Source of the DNA: Gemmatimonadota bacterium | GTDB taxonomy: Bacteria > Gemmatimonadota > Gemmatimonadetes > Gemmatimonadales > Gemmatimonadaceae | Assembly: GCA_016871895.1 (NCBI GenBank) | Contig: VHBO01000014.1 | Location: 1-44,698 of the forward strand | Direction of reading: 5' to 3' | DNA length: 44,698 nucleotides | In this document: piece by piece, positions 1-11,908 of the stretch | How positions within the stretch are numbered: the stretch's first letter is position 1 | How the letters are laid out: each line of letters opens with the position of its first letter | Program-made: the position numbers and the translations under genes | The notes under the pieces: model-generated | Databases searched by the model: none | What the model saw: the letters and a program-made list of their open reading frames with translations, nothing else | Told to the model about the DNA's origin: nothing

Positions 1-1584
1 GAGCGCCCAGCCGATGACACCGGTGTACTTCTCCGCCATCCGATCGAACCAGGCGTTGAAGGTCACGAGCTTCCGCGAGATCCAGCTCCGGTGCTCGTGC
101 GCCTCGATCTCCGGGTCGGGCCAGTAGGCCGAGAGCATCGGATCGAGCGAGAAGCTGACGAAGAGCGAGACGAGCACCGCGCAGGCGATGGTCAGCGCGA
201 GCGGCTTGAACCACTGCCCCGAGAGGCCGTACATGAAACCGATCGGCACGAAGACCGCGACGATCGAGAAGGTCGTCGCCGCCACGGCGAGCCCGATCTC
301 ATCAGTCCCCTCGTGCGCGGCGCGGAAATGGTCTTTCCCCATTTCCACGTGTCGCACGATGTTCTCGCGCACCACGATGGCGTCGTCGATCAGGATGCCG
401 ATCGCAAGCGAGAGCCCGAGCAGCGACATCGTGTTGAGCGTGAACCCGAACGCCCAGACCGCGATGAAGCTCGCGAGCACCGAGATCGGGAGCGCGAGCC
501 CGGTGATGACCGTCGAACGCCAGGAGTTCAAGAAGAGGAAGACGACGAGCACCGTCAGGAGCGCCCCCTCGATGAGCGTGCGCTGCACGTTCGCCACCGA
601 GGCGACGACGCGGTCGCCGGCGTTCTGTACGACGTCGATCGCCGTCCCCGCCGGCAGCGTCGCGCGGAGCGCCTCGACCTCGGTGATGACCTTCTCCGCC
701 ACCTGCGTGGTGGAATAGCCCTTCGCCTTCTTCACCAAGAGGCCGACGGCCTCGCGGCCGTTGTAGAGAGCCGCGGTGCGCGGCTCGGCGGTGCCGTCGC
801 GCACATCCGCGAGCTCGGCGAGACGGATCGCGCGCCCGCCGCGCTCCGCCACCACGAGCTGCAGGAAGTCCGCCGGCGTCTCAAGCTTCCCCTTGAGCCG
901 GATGGCGCGCTCGTCGAGCGCGCCGGTCAGACGGCCCACCGGCGCGGCCAGGTTCTGCGTCTGGAGCGCCCCGAGCACCTGCGCCACGCTGATCCCCGCG
1001 GCTTGGAGCGCGGCCGGCCGGAGCTCGACCGTGAGCTCACGCTCCACGCCGCCCACCACCACGGCCTCGGCGACGCCCGGAATCGAGCGCAGCACCCGCG
1101 TGATCCCGGGGTCCGCGATGCGCGTCAGCGCCGGCGCGTCGAGCGCGGTCGAGTTGAGCGAGAGCTGGACGATCGGCTGGTCCGCGGGATCGAAGCGCGT
1201 CAGCACCGGCTCCTTCATCTCGACCGGGAGCTCGCTGCGGATCGACGAGATCTTGTCGCGGATGTCCTGCGACGCCTGCTGGAGGTCCTTCTCGAAGACG
1301 AAGAAGACCGTGACGTTGGCGAAGCCGTCCTGCGCCGCGCCGCTGATGCGGTCGACGCCGGAGATCCCGCTCACTGCCTCCTCCACCCGGTCGAGCACCT
1401 CGCGCTCGACCACGTCGGGCGAGGCACCGGGGTACGGGATGGCGACGTTGATGATCGGCTGCTGCACGTCGGGGAACTCGTCGGTCTCGAGGCGCCAGAG
1501 CGCGAAGAACCCGAAGACGACCAGTGCCACCATCGAGACGACGGTGATCAGTGGCCGCTTGATCGCGAAATCAGAGATGAACAT
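1..1584 (-). CDS. RND-family efflux pump inner-membrane subunit, N-terminal half (runs off left edge)
   Basis: 528 codons are visible from the ATG at 1584 to the window edge; a whole RND pump is about 1000-1060 residues, so roughly the first half is present. The start FAIKRPLITVVSM is the usual first membrane helix of AcrB/MexB-like proteins, followed by the FPDVQQP and YPGASPDVVE segments of the porter domain. The helix around residue 400 has GILIDDAIVVREN, holding the paired aspartates of the proton relay. A GGGAG ribosome site lies 9 bases before the ATG. The gene follows the adaptor by 13 bases and is third in an efflux operon. It would export hydrophobic or toxic compounds using the proton gradient; the substrate cannot be read from sequence. 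Confidence 0.93.
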   Translation of the reverse strand, partial: MFISDFAIKRPLITVVSMVALVVFGFFALWRLETDEFPDVQQPIINVAIPYPGASPDVVEREVLDRVEEAVSGISGVDRISGAAQDGFANVTVFFVFEKDLQQASQDIRDKISSIRSELPVEMKEPVLTRFDPADQPIVQLSLNSTALDAPALTRIADPGITRVLRSIPGVAEAVVVGGVERELTVELRPAALQAAGISVAQVLGALQTQNLAAPVGRLTGALDERAIRLKGKLETPADFLQLVVAERGGRAIRLAELADVRDGTAEPRTAALYNGREAVGLLVKKAKGYSTTQVAEKVITEVEALRATLPAGTAIDVVQNAGDRVVASVANVQRTLIEGALLTVLVVFLFLNSWRSTVITGLALPISVLASFIAVWAFGFTLNTMSLLGLSLAIGILIDDAIVVRENIVRHVEMGKDHFRAAHEGTDEIGLAVAATTFSIVAVFVPIGFMYGLSGQWFKPLALTIACAVLVSLFVSFSLDPMLSAYWPDPEIEAHEHRSWISRKLVTFNAWFDRMAEKYTGVIGWAL

Positions 1585-2782: not shown

Positions 2783-4807
2783 TCAGCGCCCTCCCTGCAG
2801 CGGGAGGGGAAGGTCCTTCAGGAGCGCGAGCCGGAGCCGCGCGACTTCGAGGTCGCGCGCCGCCGTCACCCGCTGCAGGCGTGCCTGCTCCAGCTGCACA
2901 CGCACCTGCGTGAGCTCGAGGCTCGTCGAGAGCCCCTCGCGGAACCGCACCTCGGCGATCGCGTACGCGCGCTGCGCCTGCGTGTCGGTGCCAACGCTCG
3001 CGGCGTACGCCGCCTGCGCCTGCTCGTACTGGCTGATCGTGAGCAGCGCATCCACCGACGCGCCCTCGCGGCTCTGCTGCAGCCGCTCCCGCGCCTCGGT
3101 CAGATTGGCCTCGGCCACCAGCCGCTCACCACGGAGCCGGCCCCCGGTGAGCACCGGGACCGAGAGGCCGAGCGTGACGTTCCAGTTCGGGAAGTAGAGG
3201 TCGAGCGCCGACGGGAGGAACGTCCCCTCCGGCGGATAGGCGAAGCGCTGGTAGGTGCTGCTCAGCTGGAGCGCTGGGAGCCGCGCGAGCTTCGCCGCTC
3301 GTAGCGCCCCCTCCTGCGCACGCACCTGCGCCTCCGCCTGCCGCACCGTCGCGCGCGCGCTCACCGCCGTATCGGGCTGCACCGTGCGTGCGTCGGCGAG
3401 CACGATCGGCGCCGTCGGCGACGCCGCAGCGGCCACTTCGTCGCGGATCGGCGTCGTCAACGTGAGCGGCCCCGTCAGCGGGAGATCGAGCAGCTGCTTC
3501 AGCCGCAGATACGCCGCCGTGCGCGCCCCCGCCGCCTGGATCACGAGGGGACGCTGGTTGTCCCGCGCCACCTGTGCCCGGATGAGGTCGAACTCCGCCG
3601 CCGTGCCGACCTCACGCGCCAGCGTCACCTGCGCGAGCGCGCGGTCGGTGAGGACGAGCGAGCTCTCGGCGATGGCGACGAACTGGTCGGCTGCGACCGC
3701 GTCGAAATAGGCCTGGGCGACCTCGAGCACCGCCTGCGCCTTCGCCGCGTCGTAGGCGATCTCGGCGGCGGTGCGCCCCGCCGCTGCGCCCGCACGCGCC
3801 GCCGGGATGCGGCCGGCGGAGTAGAGCGTCTGCGAGACGTTCAGCGAGAAGATCGCCGTGTTCGGCGCCGCGAAGATCCGCGCGATCGGGGAATCGGTGA
3901 AGCCGCCGCCGGAGGTAGTGTCGTTCGGATCGCTGAACCGCTCGCTGATCGACGCGAACTGGTTCTGGATCGCGCGCTGATACGCGATGCTGCCGTTCGC
4001 CTGCGGGAGCCGCGCGCTGTTGGCCTGCTGCTGCACCCCCTTCGCGCGCGTCACGCCGGCCGCGGCGATCGCGACCCCCTCGCTCTTCTGCTCGGCGCGG
4101 CGAAGCGCGTCGAGGAGGGAGAGGGTGGCGGGCGCGGAGGTGGCCGTCGGGGCCGTCGCCGTGGGTGCGACGCCCCCCTGCGCGGCGAGCCTCATCGGCG
4201 CCGCGGCGATGAGGAGGATCGCGAGGCCGACCGCGGCGGTCGCGCCAAGGGCGCGGAGGAAGAGGCGCACATAGGTGCGCGGGGCGTCAGGAGCGGGCGG
4301 GAACATGGAAGGCATCACATCGCGGTGGAGGGCGTCGGAGAAGAGTGTGCCGAGAAGCATCGTGCAGGCGGCGTTCGCGTTCGCGACATCGGGAATCGCC
4401 CCCGTTCGGTGCACGCGGTCCACGTAGGCGCGCAGCTCGCGGAAGGAGACCGTCGGGTGGTCCGCGACCTCGTTCGAGTGCTCCGGGTGCTCGTGGAGCT
4501 CCGCGACGGCAGATCGGATGAGCCCGCGGCGGTCGAGCATGAACCGATGGGTCTCGGCGACCCAGCGGGTCAGCTCGGCTTCTGGCTCCGCGGGCTCCGC
4601 CGGGAGGCTAGCCGCGTCGGGGTCCCGGTGGCAGGAGCGGATGACCTCGTCGATCAGGTTCGCCTTGGAACCGAAGGTCCGGAAGAGTGTAACTTCATTG
4701 ACGCCAGCGACTTCGGCGATTCTGCGGGTCGTCGCGCCGCGGAATCCGAGCTCTGCGTAGACCTTGGCCGCCGCGTCGAGGATCTGTTGTCTGGTGGGTT
4801 CAGTCAT
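2783..4807 (-). CDS. Fusion of a TetR/AcrR repressor and a TolC-type outer-membrane efflux channel
   Basis: 674 residues in one uninterrupted frame. Residues 1-175 are a TetR repressor: the N-terminal helix-turn-helix is visible (TTRRIAEVAGVNEVTLFRTF), followed by an all-helical ligand domain. Residues 180-209 look like a Sec signal peptide: charged VRLFLR, a hydrophobic core at about 186-204, then MRLAAQG with a cleavage-like AA-Q site. From about 220 on the protein is TolC-like: SLLDALRRAEQ, LNVSQTLYSAGR, long helical hairpins and the second repeat with LGLSVPVLTGGR. I chose the ATG at 4807; a TTG at 4819 is in frame but poor. Internal starts that could yield the channel alone are ATG 4315, ATG 4306 and GTG 4270, none with a clear ribosome site. 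The gene heads the efflux operon. The domains are certain; how a repressor and an exported channel share one chain is unknown. Confidence 0.9.
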   Translation of the reverse strand: MTEPTRQQILDAAAKVYAELGFRGATTRRIAEVAGVNEVTLFRTFGSKANLIDEVIRSCHRDPDAASLPAEPAEPEAELTRWVAETHRFMLDRRGLIRSAVAELHEHPEHSNEVADHPTVSFRELRAYVDRVHRTGAIPDVANANAACTMLLGTLFSDALHRDVMPSMFPPAPDAPRTYVRLFLRALGATAAVGLAILLIAAAPMRLAAQGGVAPTATAPTATSAPATLSLLDALRRAEQKSEGVAIAAAGVTRAKGVQQQANSARLPQANGSIAYQRAIQNQFASISERFSDPNDTTSGGGFTDSPIARIFAAPNTAIFSLNVSQTLYSAGRIPAARAGAAAGRTAAEIAYDAAKAQAVLEVAQAYFDAVAADQFVAIAESSLVLTDRALAQVTLAREVGTAAEFDLIRAQVARDNQRPLVIQAAGARTAAYLRLKQLLDLPLTGPLTLTTPIRDEVAAAASPTAPIVLADARTVQPDTAVSARATVRQAEAQVRAQEGALRAAKLARLPALQLSSTYQRFAYPPEGTFLPSALDLYFPNWNVTLGLSVPVLTGGRLRGERLVAEANLTEARERLQQSREGASVDALLTISQYEQAQAAYAASVGTDTQAQRAYAIAEVRFREGLSTSLELTQVRVQLEQARLQRVTAARDLEVARLRLALLKDLPLPLQGGR

Positions 4808-4817
4808 AGTGCGATGC

Positions 4818-4852
4818 AAGTGGTTGCTTGCAATGAAAGCAAGCGACTACTT
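4818..4852. promoter_or_regulatory. Probable TetR operator upstream of the efflux operon
   Basis: An imperfect inverted repeat has arms at 4818-4831 and 4839-4852 that match at 12 of 14 positions, with a 7-base spacer. The core half-site is GCTTGC. It begins 10 bases upstream of the ATG at 4807 and lies between the efflux operon and divergent msrB. Dyads of this size next to a tetR start are the normal autoregulatory operator of the family; binding by the fused TetR domain is inferred. Confidence 0.7.
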
Positions 4853-4926
4853 ACATCAAACTCAAGCGGCAGGGAAAGGTTCCAGCGCCACTTGCCCAGC
4901 CACCGCTCCGCCCGCTCCTTCCTTCT

Positions 4927-5376
4927 ATGGCCAAGCAGAAGCCCGACGATCCCGCCCTCGCCGCCCAGCTCACCCCCCTGCAGTACCAGGTGACGCAGTG
5001 CAGCGCGACCGAGCCGCCCTTCCGCAACGAGTTCTGGGACCACAAGGCCCCCGGGCTCTACGTCGACATCGTCTCCGGCGAGCCGCTCTTCACCTCGCTC
5101 GACAAGTTCGACTCGGGGACCGGGTGGCCGTCGTTCACGCGCCCCGCGGTCGCCGCGAACGTCACCGAGCACGTCGATCGGTCGATCCCGTTCATGCCGC
5201 GTACCGAGGTGCGCTCCGCGCAGGGGGATTCCCACCTCGGCCACGTCTTCGACGACGGCCCGGGCCCCGCCGGGCTCCGCTACTGCATCAACTCGGCCGC
5301 GCTCCGGTTCATTCCAGTGGAACGGCTGGAGGCTGAAGGGTATGGAGCATTTCGACCGCTGTTCGACACCCCGTGA
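4927..5376 (+). CDS. msrB: Peptide-methionine (R)-S-oxide reductase MsrB
   Basis: 149 residues. It reduces the R-epimer of oxidised methionine in proteins. Family motifs are present: [20 protein letters not shown] (61-70), [12 protein letters not shown] and [11 protein letters not shown] with catalytic Cys120. The usual zinc-binding CxxC pairs are absent. The classical resolving Cys of GCGWPSF is Thr65 here. The only other cysteine is Cys25, so it probably resolves the disulphide, as known for some MsrBs with an N-terminal resolving Cys. No signal peptide is seen, so it is cytoplasmic. The stop overlaps the msrA start, so both epimer-specific enzymes are made together. Confidence 0.95.
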
Positions 5377-5933
5377 ACACCTCCTCCCAGACCCCTGACC
5401 CCTCCCACCTGTCCTCCGCCACCCTCGGCGGCGGCTGCTTCTGGTGCCTCGAGGCGGTCTATCTGATGCTCCGCGGCGTCCACGGGGTGAAAAGCGGGTA
5501 TGCAGGTGGCCACGTCCCGCACCCGACCTACGAGCAGGTCTGCGGGAAGCAGACGGGCCACGCCGAAGTGGTGCAGGTCATCTTCGACCCGCAGGTGATC
5601 ACCTACCGCGATCTCCTCGACGTCTTCTTCACGATCCACGACCCGACCACGCGCGACCGTCAGGGCCACGACGTCGGTCCACAGTATCGCTCGGCCATCT
5701 TCACCCACGACGACGCGCAGGCAGCGGAGGCGCACACCGCCCTGGCCGCGGCGCAGGCGTATTGGCCCGACCCGATCGTCACCGAGATCCGCCCGCTCGA
5801 CACCTTCTGGCCGGCGGAGGCGTACCACGACGACTACTTCGCGCGGAACCCGCAGAACCCCTACTGCGCCGCCGTCGTGGCGCCGAAGGTGGCGAAGGCG
5901 CGAAAGGCGTTCGTGGACCGGCTCGCGCGATGA
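5373..5933 (+). CDS. msrA: Peptide-methionine (S)-S-oxide reductase MsrA
   Basis: 186 residues, starting at a GTG that overlaps the msrB stop (GTGA, 5373-5376), so translation is probably coupled. The active-site motif [11 protein letters not shown] has catalytic Cys22, with Cys25 close by. The family segments [34 protein letters not shown] and GPQYRSAIF follow. A further conserved Cys is in the late [11 protein letters not shown] motif. There is no signal peptide. It complements msrB by reducing the S-epimer. Its stop codon overlaps the first ATG of the next gene (ATGA at 5930-5933). Confidence 0.96.
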
Positions 5934-6001
5934 GCGGCGCGATGAGCGGCGCGATGAGCGGCGCGATGAGCGGCGCGATGAGCGGCTCGATGCGCGGCGT
6001 G
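5930..6001 (+). repeat. 12-bp tandem repeat of start codons
   Basis: The unit ATGAGCGGCGCG occurs four times exactly (5930-5977), then once as ATGAGCGGCTCG (5978-5989) and once decayed as ATGCGCGGCGTG (5990-6001). Each unit begins with ATG in the frame of the downstream gene, giving six consecutive in-frame start codons and a repeated Met-Ser-Gly-Ala. The first ATG overlaps the msrA stop. Unit length is a multiple of three, so copy-number change would not shift the frame. Confidence 0.95.
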
Positions 6002-8382: not shown

Positions 8383-10140
8383 TCACCGGCTGTTGAGGGC
8401 GCCGAGGACCTTCCCGAGGAAGGCGTCGATCGCCGCGTTCTCGATCCACCGCACTACAATCACGAGATCCTGTTCCGGCGCCACGAAGACGAGGTTCGTG
8501 CCGTTCCCGACGTGCCCGAACGCGCTCGCCGGCGCGCTCGGCATCCACTTCCGCTCGGTGTTGAGGAACCAGTTCATATAGCCGTAGGTGGGCTGCGGCC
8601 CCGTCGGCGTGAGCGCCTGCGCGACCCACGCGTCGGAGAGGATGCGCCGCGTCCCCCACATCCCGCGCCGCTGCGTGAGGAGCCCGAAGCGCGCGAGGTC
8701 CCACGCGTTGATGAACATCCCGCCACCCCAATGGCCACCGCCGCTCACCACCTGCACCGGGCGCCCATCGAGGGTGATCCACGCATTGTCGTACCCATTC
8801 CAGCGCCAGCTGCGCGAGGCACCGATGGGATCCATCACCTCGTCACGCAACACCTCGGGGAGGGGCCGACGCCAGACGTTCGTCGCCGCGAGCGCCAGCA
8901 CGTTCACCCGCACATCGTTGTACTCGTACGTCGTCCCCGGCCGGGCGCGCGGACGCGTGCGCCATTCGGCGGGGTTCGCCGACGGCCGGTCGGCCCAATC
9001 GGGCTTCCCCCAGAGCGTCCCCTCCCAATCGCTCGTCTGCCGGAGGAGATCGTCCCAGCGGATCGTACGGTTGTGCGGCGTGCTCCACGGATCGAGGAGC
9101 ATCGACTCCCCTGTCGTCGTGCCGGGCTCGGCCGGCGCCGTGAGCCGAAGTCGATAGGTCGGTGCCTGCGAGCGCCACACCATGTCGCGCACCGAGCCGA
9201 TCAGGCCACGGTCGACGGCGAGGCCGACGGTCGTCGAGAGGAAGCTCTTCGTGACGCTGTGCGTCATATCGACCCGGTCCGGCTCCCCCCAGCTCGCGAT
9301 GATGAACCCGCCCCGCAGGATCACCCCCGTCGGCTCGCCACGCGGTGCGAACGGACCGATCCCCTGCCCGAACGGCTCACGACCGAAAGTGCGGTAGTGG
9401 TTCTCCTCCATATCACGCGGCGCCTTCGCCTCGTTCTCGACGGCGAACGCGATCGCGGCCGCGAGCGTCGCGCTGTCCACCCCCATCGCCGCTGGGGACC
9501 TCCGCTCCCAGGTGGCATCGGGCACATAGGGCGCGGCGACCGGACGCGCCCGCCCGAGCCCGGCCTGTGCCTCCGCGACCGTCGGTGACGTGGCGGCCGC
9601 CATCCCCGAGACGAGCACCAGCCCCGCCGCGGTGAGACGCGCCCGCTTCCGCTTCGTGAGATAGGGCAAGAGCCAGAGATAGGCACCCGTCAACCAGAGG
9701 CCGAAGAGCACGATCCCCGAGGGGAGGAAAATCCCGAGCTTCGCCGCATCACCGAAGAAGGAACCATCGTGCAACTGCTCGATGAGGTCCGACCGCCGAT
9801 ACGCCGTCTGCAGGACCGCACCGTCGGCGAGCGCGAGCTGCGCTTCCCACCGCGAATGCGTGATGACCTTCAGGATCCCCTTCCCGGGGCGCACATCCAC
9901 CCGCTCGATGTCCTCCCAGCCGCGCACCCCGGCCTCCGGCATCGCGCGGGCGGCGGCGAGGATCACGTCCCACGCGACGGTCGGCACCGACACGGGCGTG
10001 CGCCGCTCCGCAGGCTGCACCCAGGTGACCTGCTTCTTCACCTGCAGCAGGAGCCCCGACCCGACGACACAGAGCAGGGGGAGGAAGACGGCGACGGAGC
10101 CCCACCGATGGAGCCGGCGGGAGAGGATCGAGAGGCGCAT
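8383..10140 (-). CDS. PepSY membrane domain fused to a periplasmic class-C beta-lactamase-like serine hydrolase
   Basis: 585 residues from the ATG at 10140. Residues 1-160 are a PepSY-associated membrane module: helix 1 near 14-33, an exported loop with a PepSY-like fold, helix 2 near 138-160. A basic KRKRAR patch then precedes a third hydrophobic stretch (about 169-185) ending in AEAQA, which looks like an embedded signal peptide or anchor. From about 200 on it is a serine hydrolase of the penicillin-binding/NylB type: SVTK at 295-298 is the SxxK catalytic motif, with a later EYND tyrosine motif and GHVGNG near the end. The predicted topology (N-in, three helices) puts the hydrolase in the periplasm. 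The substrate is unknown. It is the first gene of a pair with the amidohydrolase. Confidence 0.85.
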   Translation of the reverse strand: MRLSILSRRLHRWGSVAVFLPLLCVVGSGLLLQVKKQVTWVQPAERRTPVSVPTVAWDVILAAARAMPEAGVRGWEDIERVDVRPGKGILKVITHSRWEAQLALADGAVLQTAYRRSDLIEQLHDGSFFGDAAKLGIFLPSGIVLFGLWLTGAYLWLLPYLTKRKRARLTAAGLVLVSGMAAATSPTVAEAQAGLGRARPVAAPYVPDATWERRSPAAMGVDSATLAAAIAFAVENEAKAPRDMEENHYRTFGREPFGQGIGPFAPRGEPTGVILRGGFIIASWGEPDRVDMTHSVTKSFLSTTVGLAVDRGLIGSVRDMVWRSQAPTYRLRLTAPAEPGTTTGESMLLDPWSTPHNRTIRWDDLLRQTSDWEGTLWGKPDWADRPSANPAEWRTRPRARPGTTYEYNDVRVNVLALAATNVWRRPLPEVLRDEVMDPIGASRSWRWNGYDNAWITLDGRPVQVVSGGGHWGGGMFINAWDLARFGLLTQRRGMWGTRRILSDAWVAQALTPTGPQPTYGYMNWFLNTERKWMPSAPASAFGHVGNGTNLVFVAPEQDLVIVVRWIENAAIDAFLGKVLGALNSR

Positions 10141-10240
10141 AGGGCGACGGGCGTGGGGGACGTTGCGCGAACCTCCAGAAGATGGTCGCTTTCCCCCCGA
10201 GCCCGGAATGCCTGCCGGCCTCGTCCGTCCGCCCCCCTTC

Positions 10241-10245
10241 GGAGG
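10241..10245 (+). promoter_or_regulatory. Shine-Dalgarno site that sets the M20D start
   Basis: GGAGG lies 10 bases before the ATG at 10256. The open frame continues far upstream but lacks a signal peptide there, so this site supports the shorter, secreted form. Confidence 0.7.
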
Positions 10246-10255
10246 AACCGCCTCG

Positions 10256-11908
10256 ATGTCCCTGTGGTCCCGTCCCATCCGTCTCGCCCTCGTCGGCCTC
10301 GCCGCCCTCACCCTCCCGGTGACGGCGTCGGCGCAGCTGAGTGCCGCCGACTCCGCTCGTCTCGAGCGCCTCAAGGCCGAGGCGCTCACGAAGGTCGACC
10401 CGAAGCTCGTCCAGGAGATCGTCGACCAGCTCTTCTCCTACTCCGAACTCGGGATGCAGGAGTTCGAGACCCAGCGCTACATCACCCGCCTCCTCCGCTC
10501 CAAGGGCTTCACGGTCGACTCCGGCTACGCCGGGATGCCGAGCGCCTGGGTCGCGCGGTGGGTGAGCCCCGCCGGCCCGAAGCCCGAGATCTCCCTCGGC
10601 TCCGACGTCGACGGCATCCCGCAGGCGAGCAACCGCCCGGCGGTCGCCTTCCGCGACCCGCAGGTGGAGGGCGCGCCCGGACACGGCGAAGGCCATAACT
10701 CCGGTCAGGCGGTGAACATCGCGGCGGCGCTCGTCGTGAAGGAGCTCATGATCCGCGAGCGGATCCCGGGCACAATCGTCCTCTGGCCCGGCATCGCCGA
10801 GGAGCAGATGGCGGGGAAGGCCTTCCTCGTGCGCGCAGGACTCCTCAAGAACACCGACGTCGCGCTCTTCACGCACGTGGGCAGCGACCTCGGCGTGCAG
10901 TGGGGCGCCTCCGGCTCGACGGCGCTGATCTCCGCGATCTTCAAGTTCCGCGGCACCAGCGCGCACGCCGCCGGCGCCCCGTGGCGCGGCCGCTCCGCGC
11001 TCGACGCCGCGATGCTGATGGGCACCGGGTGGGAATACCAGCGCGAGCACAACGAGCTCCCGACGCGCTCGCACTACGTGATCCGCGACGGCGGCGACCA
11101 GCCGAACGTCGTGCCGAGCACCGCGAGCATCTGGTTCTACTTCCGCGAGCGCGACTACGAGCGCACCAAGGCGCTCTTCGAGCGCGGTCGGCAGATCGCG
11201 CAGGGCGCGGCGATGATGGCAAACGTCAGCCTCGACACCGTGATGATGGTCGGCTCCGGCTGGAGCGCGCATTTCAACAAGACCATCGCCGAGGTGACGC
11301 ACAGCAACATCCGGCGCGTCGGGATGCCGCAGTGGGATTCCGCCGACGTCGCGATGGCCCGCGCGCTGCAGCGTGAGCTCGGCGTCCGCGAGGGCGGCCT
11401 CGGCACCGAGACCGCGCTCAACGTCGGTCTGCCCGTCCCCGCCAGCCAGCAGATGGGCGGCGGCTCCGACGACATCGGCGACGTCTCGTGGAATGTGCCC
11501 ACCGTCACGCTCCGCTTCCCGTCGAACATCCCCGGCCCGCCGGGCCACAACTGGGCGAACGCCATCGTGATGGCGACGCCGATCGCCCACAAGGGCGCCT
11601 ACGCGGGCGCCAAGGTGCAGGCGCTCACGATGCTCGACATCCTCCTCCGCAAGGAAGTGGTGGATTCGGCCTGGGCGTACTTCCGCGACGTGCAGACGAA
11701 GGAAATCAAGTACACCCCCTTCATCGCGCCGACCGATCAGCCGCCGATCTACCTGAATCAGGAGATCATGGCGAAATACAAGCCGCTCCTGCAGCCGTAC
11801 TACTACGATCCGAAGAAGTTCAAGACGTATCTCGAGCAACTCGGGATCGCGTACCCGACGACGCGCGAGATGCTCCGCCCGCGGATGGACGGCCAGCCGC
11901 AGCCCTGA
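10256..11908 (+). CDS. Secreted M20D amidohydrolase, AbgB-like
   Basis: 550 residues with a signal peptide (LALVGLAALTLPVTASAQ). It belongs to the M20D metallopeptidase/amidohydrolase group that includes p-aminobenzoyl-glutamate hydrolase subunit B: ELGMQEFETQRYI, SLGSDVDGIPQ, GHGEGHNSGQAVNIAA, GIAEEQMAGKAF, GTSAHAAGAPWRGRSALDA (dimerisation domain), and GGGSDDIGDVSW with PPGHNWAN near the end. In most members the metal motif is GHxCGHD; here the Cys is Glu. The long C-terminal tail with YYYDPKKFKTYLEQLG is typical of the larger periplasmic forms. It probably cleaves an amide bond of an N-acyl amino acid or peptide; the exact substrate is open. A strong hairpin lies 20 bases after the stop. 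Confidence 0.88.
   Translation: MSLWSRPIRLALVGLAALTLPVTASAQLSAADSARLERLKAEALTKVDPKLVQEIVDQLFSYSELGMQEFETQRYITRLLRSKGFTVDSGYAGMPSAWVARWVSPAGPKPEISLGSDVDGIPQASNRPAVAFRDPQVEGAPGHGEGHNSGQAVNIAAALVVKELMIRERIPGTIVLWPGIAEEQMAGKAFLVRAGLLKNTDVALFTHVGSDLGVQWGASGSTALISAIFKFRGTSAHAAGAPWRGRSALDAAMLMGTGWEYQREHNELPTRSHYVIRDGGDQPNVVPSTASIWFYFRERDYERTKALFERGRQIAQGAAMMANVSLDTVMMVGSGWSAHFNKTIAEVTHSNIRRVGMPQWDSADVAMARALQRELGVREGGLGTETALNVGLPVPASQQMGGGSDDIGDVSWNVPTVTLRFPSNIPGPPGHNWANAIVMATPIAHKGAYAGAKVQALTMLDILLRKEVVDSAWAYFRDVQTKEIKYTPFIAPTDQPPIYLNQEIMAKYKPLLQPYYYDPKKFKTYLEQLGIAYPTTREMLRPRMDGQPQP

Follow-up and report, generated by a model that had tools for sequence, protein, structure and literature searches.

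A putative TetR-TolC polyprotein with an internal signal peptide in Gemmatimonadota

Background

Bacterial polyproteins parted at an internal signal peptide have a precedent in the cytochrome b/c1 precursor encoded by fbcH of Bradyrhizobium. ToxR and CadC are membrane-bound one-component regulators in which a cytoplasmic DNA-binding domain is combined with one membrane segment, in an N-in orientation. The local TetR repressors of tripartite efflux pumps are, according to PMC8277102, normally separate proteins and often divergently coded. In hepatitis C virus, as PMC5402940 describes, the signal peptide of E1 forms the C-terminal end of the cytosolic core protein; signal peptidase makes the cut at this core-E1 junction, and core retains the signal peptide as a tail until released by an intramembrane protease. 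We found no relevant description of a TetR-TolC fusion or of a membrane-bound TetR in the open-licence library searched.

The window analysed here is the whole stretch of 44,698 nucleotides of contig VHBO01000014.1 (assembly GCA_016871895.1), from a Gemmatimonadota genome of 2.28 Mb in 129 contigs. The nearby genomes among those publicly available are Gemmatimonadota MAGs, several of which, by title, come from lakes.

Results and discussion

One frame with a repressor, a signal peptide and a channel

A preliminary description, made from the window alone, had proposed an unbroken frame of 674 codons. Its length and coordinates proved exact, the frame running from ATG 4807 to TGA 2783. The full TetR domain, mid-frame Sec-like signal peptide and full TolC-type channel that it placed there were likewise recovered by Pfam, structure match and composition. 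The features of the locus, by position in the window, are as follows.

1..1584, minus strand: AcrB-type RND pump gene, truncated at the contig end
1598..2779, minus strand: RND periplasmic adaptor (MFP) gene, the next gene of the operon; Pfam match, strong Shine-Dalgarno sequence
2783..4807, minus strand: TetR-TolC fusion gene, 674 codons plus stop
2786..4180, minus strand: mature TolC/OEP outer-membrane channel, residues 210-674 (PF02321, two stretches)
4178..4183, minus strand: predicted signal peptidase I cut between A209 and Q210, invariant in the aligned fusions (n=15)
4181..4267, minus strand: predicted internal Sec-type signal peptide, about residues 181-209 (composition and motif)
4244..4807, minus strand: TetR/AcrR-type repressor domain, residues 1-188, nine-helix fold complete (TetR_N match, AlphaFold2 helices, structure alignment)
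4268..4315, minus strand: region of the proposed internal starts; ordinary TetR codons, unsupported as starts
4643..4783, minus strand: helix-turn-helix DNA-binding part (TetR_N), residues 9-55 (Pfam)
4816..4831: predicted operator GCAAGCAACCACTTGC, the sole perfect GCAAGN6CTTGC copy in the 2.28 Mb genome
4839..4854: second, upstream operator copy with one mismatch, spaced 23 bp from the first

TetR_N (PF00440) matched residues 9-55 with 47.2 bits (E 1.9e-12), the cut-off being 24 bits. An AlphaFold2 model placed nine helices within residues 6-187 (from 6-24 to 175-187), with pLDDT mostly 70-87, and model residues 2-189 gave a full-domain alignment to TetR-family crystal structures (best Z 16.2, 184 residues). 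Because the alignment extends across residues 2-189 and all nine helices, the repressor domain can be taken as complete; model and structure match agree on the nine-helix family fold with dimerisation helices 8-9. In the C-terminal part, OEP (PF02321) matched in two stretches reaching residue 663 (139 bits, E 1.5e-40), and two such repeats characterise the TolC/OEP family. The channel half of the model, for which seven sequences were used, was poor (pLDDT mostly <50).

A TetR repressor is expected to be soluble and to stand alone, its chain terminating after helix 9 or 10, whereas this frame runs on into a signal peptide and a channel. A TolC precursor is expected to have an N-terminal signal peptide with its own start, yet here the signal peptide is internal and that start has been lost. 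The gene has the layout of a polyprotein, with one open frame, an internal signal peptide and a conserved cut site. The junction peptide is ALGATAAVGLAILLIAAAPMR, and in the model helix 9 (175-187) directly precedes the signal-peptide helix (189-201).

One chain or an internal start

Two routes to a free channel had been envisaged for this locus, a single chain cut at the internal signal peptide, or initiation at ATG 4315, ATG 4306 or GTG 4270. These three are in fact codons 165, 168 and 180 of the fusion. If ribosomes also, or only, began at one of them, TolC would be an ordinary precursor of its own with an extended n-region, and TetR would either be made as the long fusion or not be made. 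In favour of such a start, ATG165 is present in all genus members, the ancestral TolC owned its start, and a moderate, GGG-type Shine-Dalgarno-like sequence precedes codon 165 in 11 of 14 genomes (-2.6 to -5.9 kcal/mol). However, the remaining three, which are the window and its two nearest relatives, score +0.3 to +0.5 kcal/mol, and the same position in 20 separate TetRs has a mean of -2.87, so that the fusions do no better there than separate TetRs. The adaptor gene just downstream, used as a control, scores -6.6 to -11.4 in 14 of 14 genomes.

The candidate codons themselves lie in the TetR motifs DAMGRDMMPEMFPP and YVRLF, both common to separate TetRs. Codon 180 is GTC or GTT, and thus no start codon, in three genus members (L011-L013), while in three fusions of a second genus (L059, L062 and L064) no ATG, GTG or TTG is placed so as to yield a signal peptide of 16-45 aa. 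Synonymous variation over codons 161-175 stands at the 99.8th percentile, and sites this much freer than elsewhere argue that no hidden start signal lies there. We therefore regard an internal start as unlikely: it lacks synonymous constraint and a conserved Shine-Dalgarno sequence, and the fused genomes with no usable start speak against it. From the lost starts, weak Shine-Dalgarno sequences and free synonymous sites, the simplest reading is that TolC would be reached only by translating TetR first. The single-chain route of the preliminary description thus gains support from the lost start codons, and also from the conserved cut site and repeated fusion described below.

The internal signal peptide

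By composition and motif, on which the prediction is based, the signal peptide takes its basic residues R181 and R185 from TetR helix 9 and continues with a hydrophobic core (about 189-204) and a c-region to A209. Segment 189-210 is fast-evolving, with 53% mean identity within the genus, and despite this A209 and Q210 are invariant in the 15 aligned fusions. The -AQ end is common to the fusions and most separate TolC signal peptides. Mean core hydrophobicity was 2.37 in fused and 1.87 in separate TolC sequences (p = 4e-6 without correction for relatedness), and the values per fusion event (2.41, 2.18, 2.54 and 2.21) all exceed the separate mean. Fused cores match or exceed those of normal TolCs in strength, as would suit co-translational targeting of a chain whose N-terminal domain is folded. 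The arrangement is consistent with a topology of TetR N-in and TolC out, and judged by these features the fusion's signal peptide probably still works as such.

The slightly stronger core would also be in keeping with an uncut chain, in which the hydrophobic segment is a permanent anchor and a bitopic TetR-TolC stays in the inner membrane with TolC unreleased. This we consider very unlikely, since Ala -1 and Gln +1 are invariant, as in separate TolCs, and since such a chain could not build a trimeric outer-membrane channel. Signal peptidase I and site-2 protease are each encoded by two genes in the window's genome. In Escherichia coli the site-2 protease RseP clears signal peptides from the membrane (PMC8144685), and on that precedent the tail left on TetR may be trimmed.

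The repressor half and its operator

Residues 26-48 of the helix-turn-helix are 91% identical within the fused genus, and fused TetRs equal separate TetRs in conservation of both the helix-turn-helix and the whole domain. Identities of TetR and channel stand in a like relation in fused clades (0.660/0.728 and 0.840/0.883) and in separate ones (0.768/0.823 and 0.606/0.695). The palindrome GCAAGY-N4-RCTTGC occurs no more than 120 nt upstream in 20 of the 23 fused loci and 27 of the 34 separate ones (47/57 together) and is absent from 187 kb of following sequence that served as control. It is often doubled, usually at a spacing of 22-23 bp. A palindromic site at its own promoter, as expected of a TetR operator, is thus predicted from the DNA. 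The operator and pump genes that had been reported as adjacent are borne out by these palindromes upstream and the RND adaptor and pump genes downstream, and with the latter adjoining the fusion the whole has the composition of a tripartite RND efflux operon. As the window's genome has a single perfect operator copy, the fusion TetR most likely acts solely on its own operon.

The fusion might instead have survived because the channel is needed, leaving the repressor half as an inactive relic. Nothing specific speaks for this, although the operator of one genus member (L009) has diverged; the equal conservation of fused and separate TetRs and the operator kept in most fused loci make it highly improbable. 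By sequence criteria the repressor half looks functional.

The fusion's own start, at 4807 and in relatives L001-L014, has no Shine-Dalgarno sequence (+2.2 to -2.9 kcal/mol). Since the operator also ends 8 nt before the start codon in the window, the transcript may be nearly leaderless. A scan of 4700-5000 for a sigma-70 consensus promoter found none.

Conservation of the junction

The fusion gene was found in 16 of 17 genus genomes, the one genome without it being 71% complete. Where the gene is complete, the fusions share 62-93% protein identity, and in all 16 genomes that have the locus the junction is open and the frame unbroken across it. The genomes with an open junction include G011, a single contig, and G004, in three contigs. 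In two drafts, G003 (L015/L037) and G013 (L017/L039), the half of the gene that encodes the channel is frameshifted, probably through assembly or sequencing errors.

That such an error erased a stop codon between two ordinary genes is scarcely credible and was rejected, for although the frame of those two drafts does break beyond the junction, within the channel, independent genomes, the single-contig and three-contig ones among them, keep the frame, and an open junction retained across the genus is no artefact. The comparative evidence points to a genuine TetR-TolC fusion that has evolved repeatedly and still works.

Separate pairs and repeated fusion

The search was extended beyond the window's genus to 179 genomes of the family, where tetR and tolC are usually two separate neighbouring genes. 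The separate tetR has a C-terminal tail, often basic, followed by its own stop, and the separate tolC has its own ATG or GTG at -11 to +35 nt relative to the tetR stop, often in another frame. In G099 (4,636,964 bp), which has the separate form, the tolC start overlaps the tetR stop by four bases. Within the window's genus the TetR tail, stop, TolC start and signal-peptide n-region are all gone, and helix 9 leads directly to the hydrophobic core.

Besides the window's genus, in-frame fusions occur in G018 and in two subclades of a second genus, one comprising G035, G078, G082 and G086 and the other G087 and G093. The junction differs from group to group. Junctions of the second genus retain a tail, for example HKSRSNGRRR or SDRKRTITRV, and that of G018 reads KPKARARKRV. 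A quick tree of the channel part, which alone cannot separate gain from loss, requires four changes by parsimony, and well-supported branches force three of the four. This count and the differing junctions together disfavour a single ancient fusion that later came apart, and from them we infer that in-frame fusion arose at least three and probably four times. Among the matches listed for a 395-genome sample of the phylum (E to ~1e-116) there was no further full-length unbroken fusion, and a plasmid search with the fusion as query returned matches to the TetR part only.

Neighbouring features of the window

Divergent from the pump operon lie overlapping msrB and msrA genes for methionine sulfoxide reductases (4927-5933, plus strand). 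Upstream DNA resembling this msr region was seen only in a few close relatives (L003, L015 and L017); in other genus members the sequence upstream of the fusion differs. Right at the end of msrA is a 12-bp tandem repeat of 6.2 copies, GCGCGATGAGCG (5925-5999, plus strand), which supplies successive in-frame ATGs where the following protein, apparently an exported one, begins. The copy number of the repeat could shift the start of that protein.

A second fusion of like design is found at 8383-10389 (minus strand), where a PepSY-type membrane protein and a beta-lactamase-fold serine hydrolase share one frame. The PepSY-type protein starts near MRLSILSRRLHRWG and is followed by a basic stretch and a signal-peptide-like segment, LTKRKRARLTAAGLVLVSGMAAATSPTVAEAQA, and then by the hydrolase. 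The fusion is in-frame in several genus genomes (L106-L111), including the single-contig G011; G002, G006, G009 and G016 apparently have it divided into two pieces.

Proposed mechanism and significance

We consider it probable that the fusion is a polyprotein resolved by signal peptidase, which would free the channel and leave an autorepressor with a membrane tail. Ribosomes would translate TetR before TolC in a single precursor made up of cytoplasmic TetR, internal signal peptide and TolC. The hydrophobic segment after the last TetR helix would route the remainder via Sec while the TetR end stays cytoplasmic. Signal peptidase I would cut between A209 and Q210 and TolC would proceed to the outer membrane, with TetR keeping a short C-terminal membrane tail that a site-2 protease may trim later. 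The TetR part would bind the palindrome just upstream of its own start and repress the fusion-adaptor-pump operon until a ligand frees it from the DNA, as with local TetR repressors of pumps.

A tethered TetR could repress if the locus lies near the membrane during expression, by transertion (reviewed in PMC4464175). A possible consequence of the cut is that repressor release is linked to channel export. More tentatively, and we hold this further step to be doubtful, the tethered TetR would repress the operon in cis at the membrane site where nascent channels are exported, and either its release by site-2 protease or export-dependent repression would then make a feedback that reads channel export.

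Here a bacterial regulator and the product of its target gene appear to be synthesised as a single chain that signal peptidase separates, an arrangement that appears to have evolved repeatedly within one family. Such a fusion would position the repressor at the membrane and fix its ratio to the channel, at one to one if translation yields a single chain, as the preliminary description had supposed. It would also be a simple route from operon to polyprotein, open to any protein with a cytoplasmic C-terminus joined to an exported one. With the PepSY-hydrolase frame as a second case in the window, such fusions may be habitual in the lineage and may be overlooked by gene annotation.

Comparison with known systems

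The locus resembles the AcrR-AcrAB-TolC type in its TetR domain, in the palindromic operator beside the pump genes and in being a predicted autoregulated pump operon. However, an AcrR-type regulator is normally separate and soluble, whereas the TetR of the fusion is the N-terminal half of a channel precursor. With TolC/OprM factors (PF02321) the channel half shares the two OEP repeats, the signal peptide, the -AQ cut and the RND adaptor and pump downstream. It differs from them by an N-terminal extension of about 209 residues that comprises a complete repressor and the signal peptide, which is internal and without its own start codon.

Among proteins parted, or predicted to be parted, at an internal signal peptide, both halves of the fbcH product belong to one membrane enzyme, whereas the present gene couples a DNA-binding protein of the cytoplasm to an outer-membrane channel. 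The hepatitis C core-E1 junction differs in belonging to a eukaryotic virus, in being processed at the ER and in joining proteins unrelated to TetR and TolC. In ToxR and CadC the periplasmic sensor stays attached to the regulator, while the exported part of the fusion is a channel and is predicted to be cut off.
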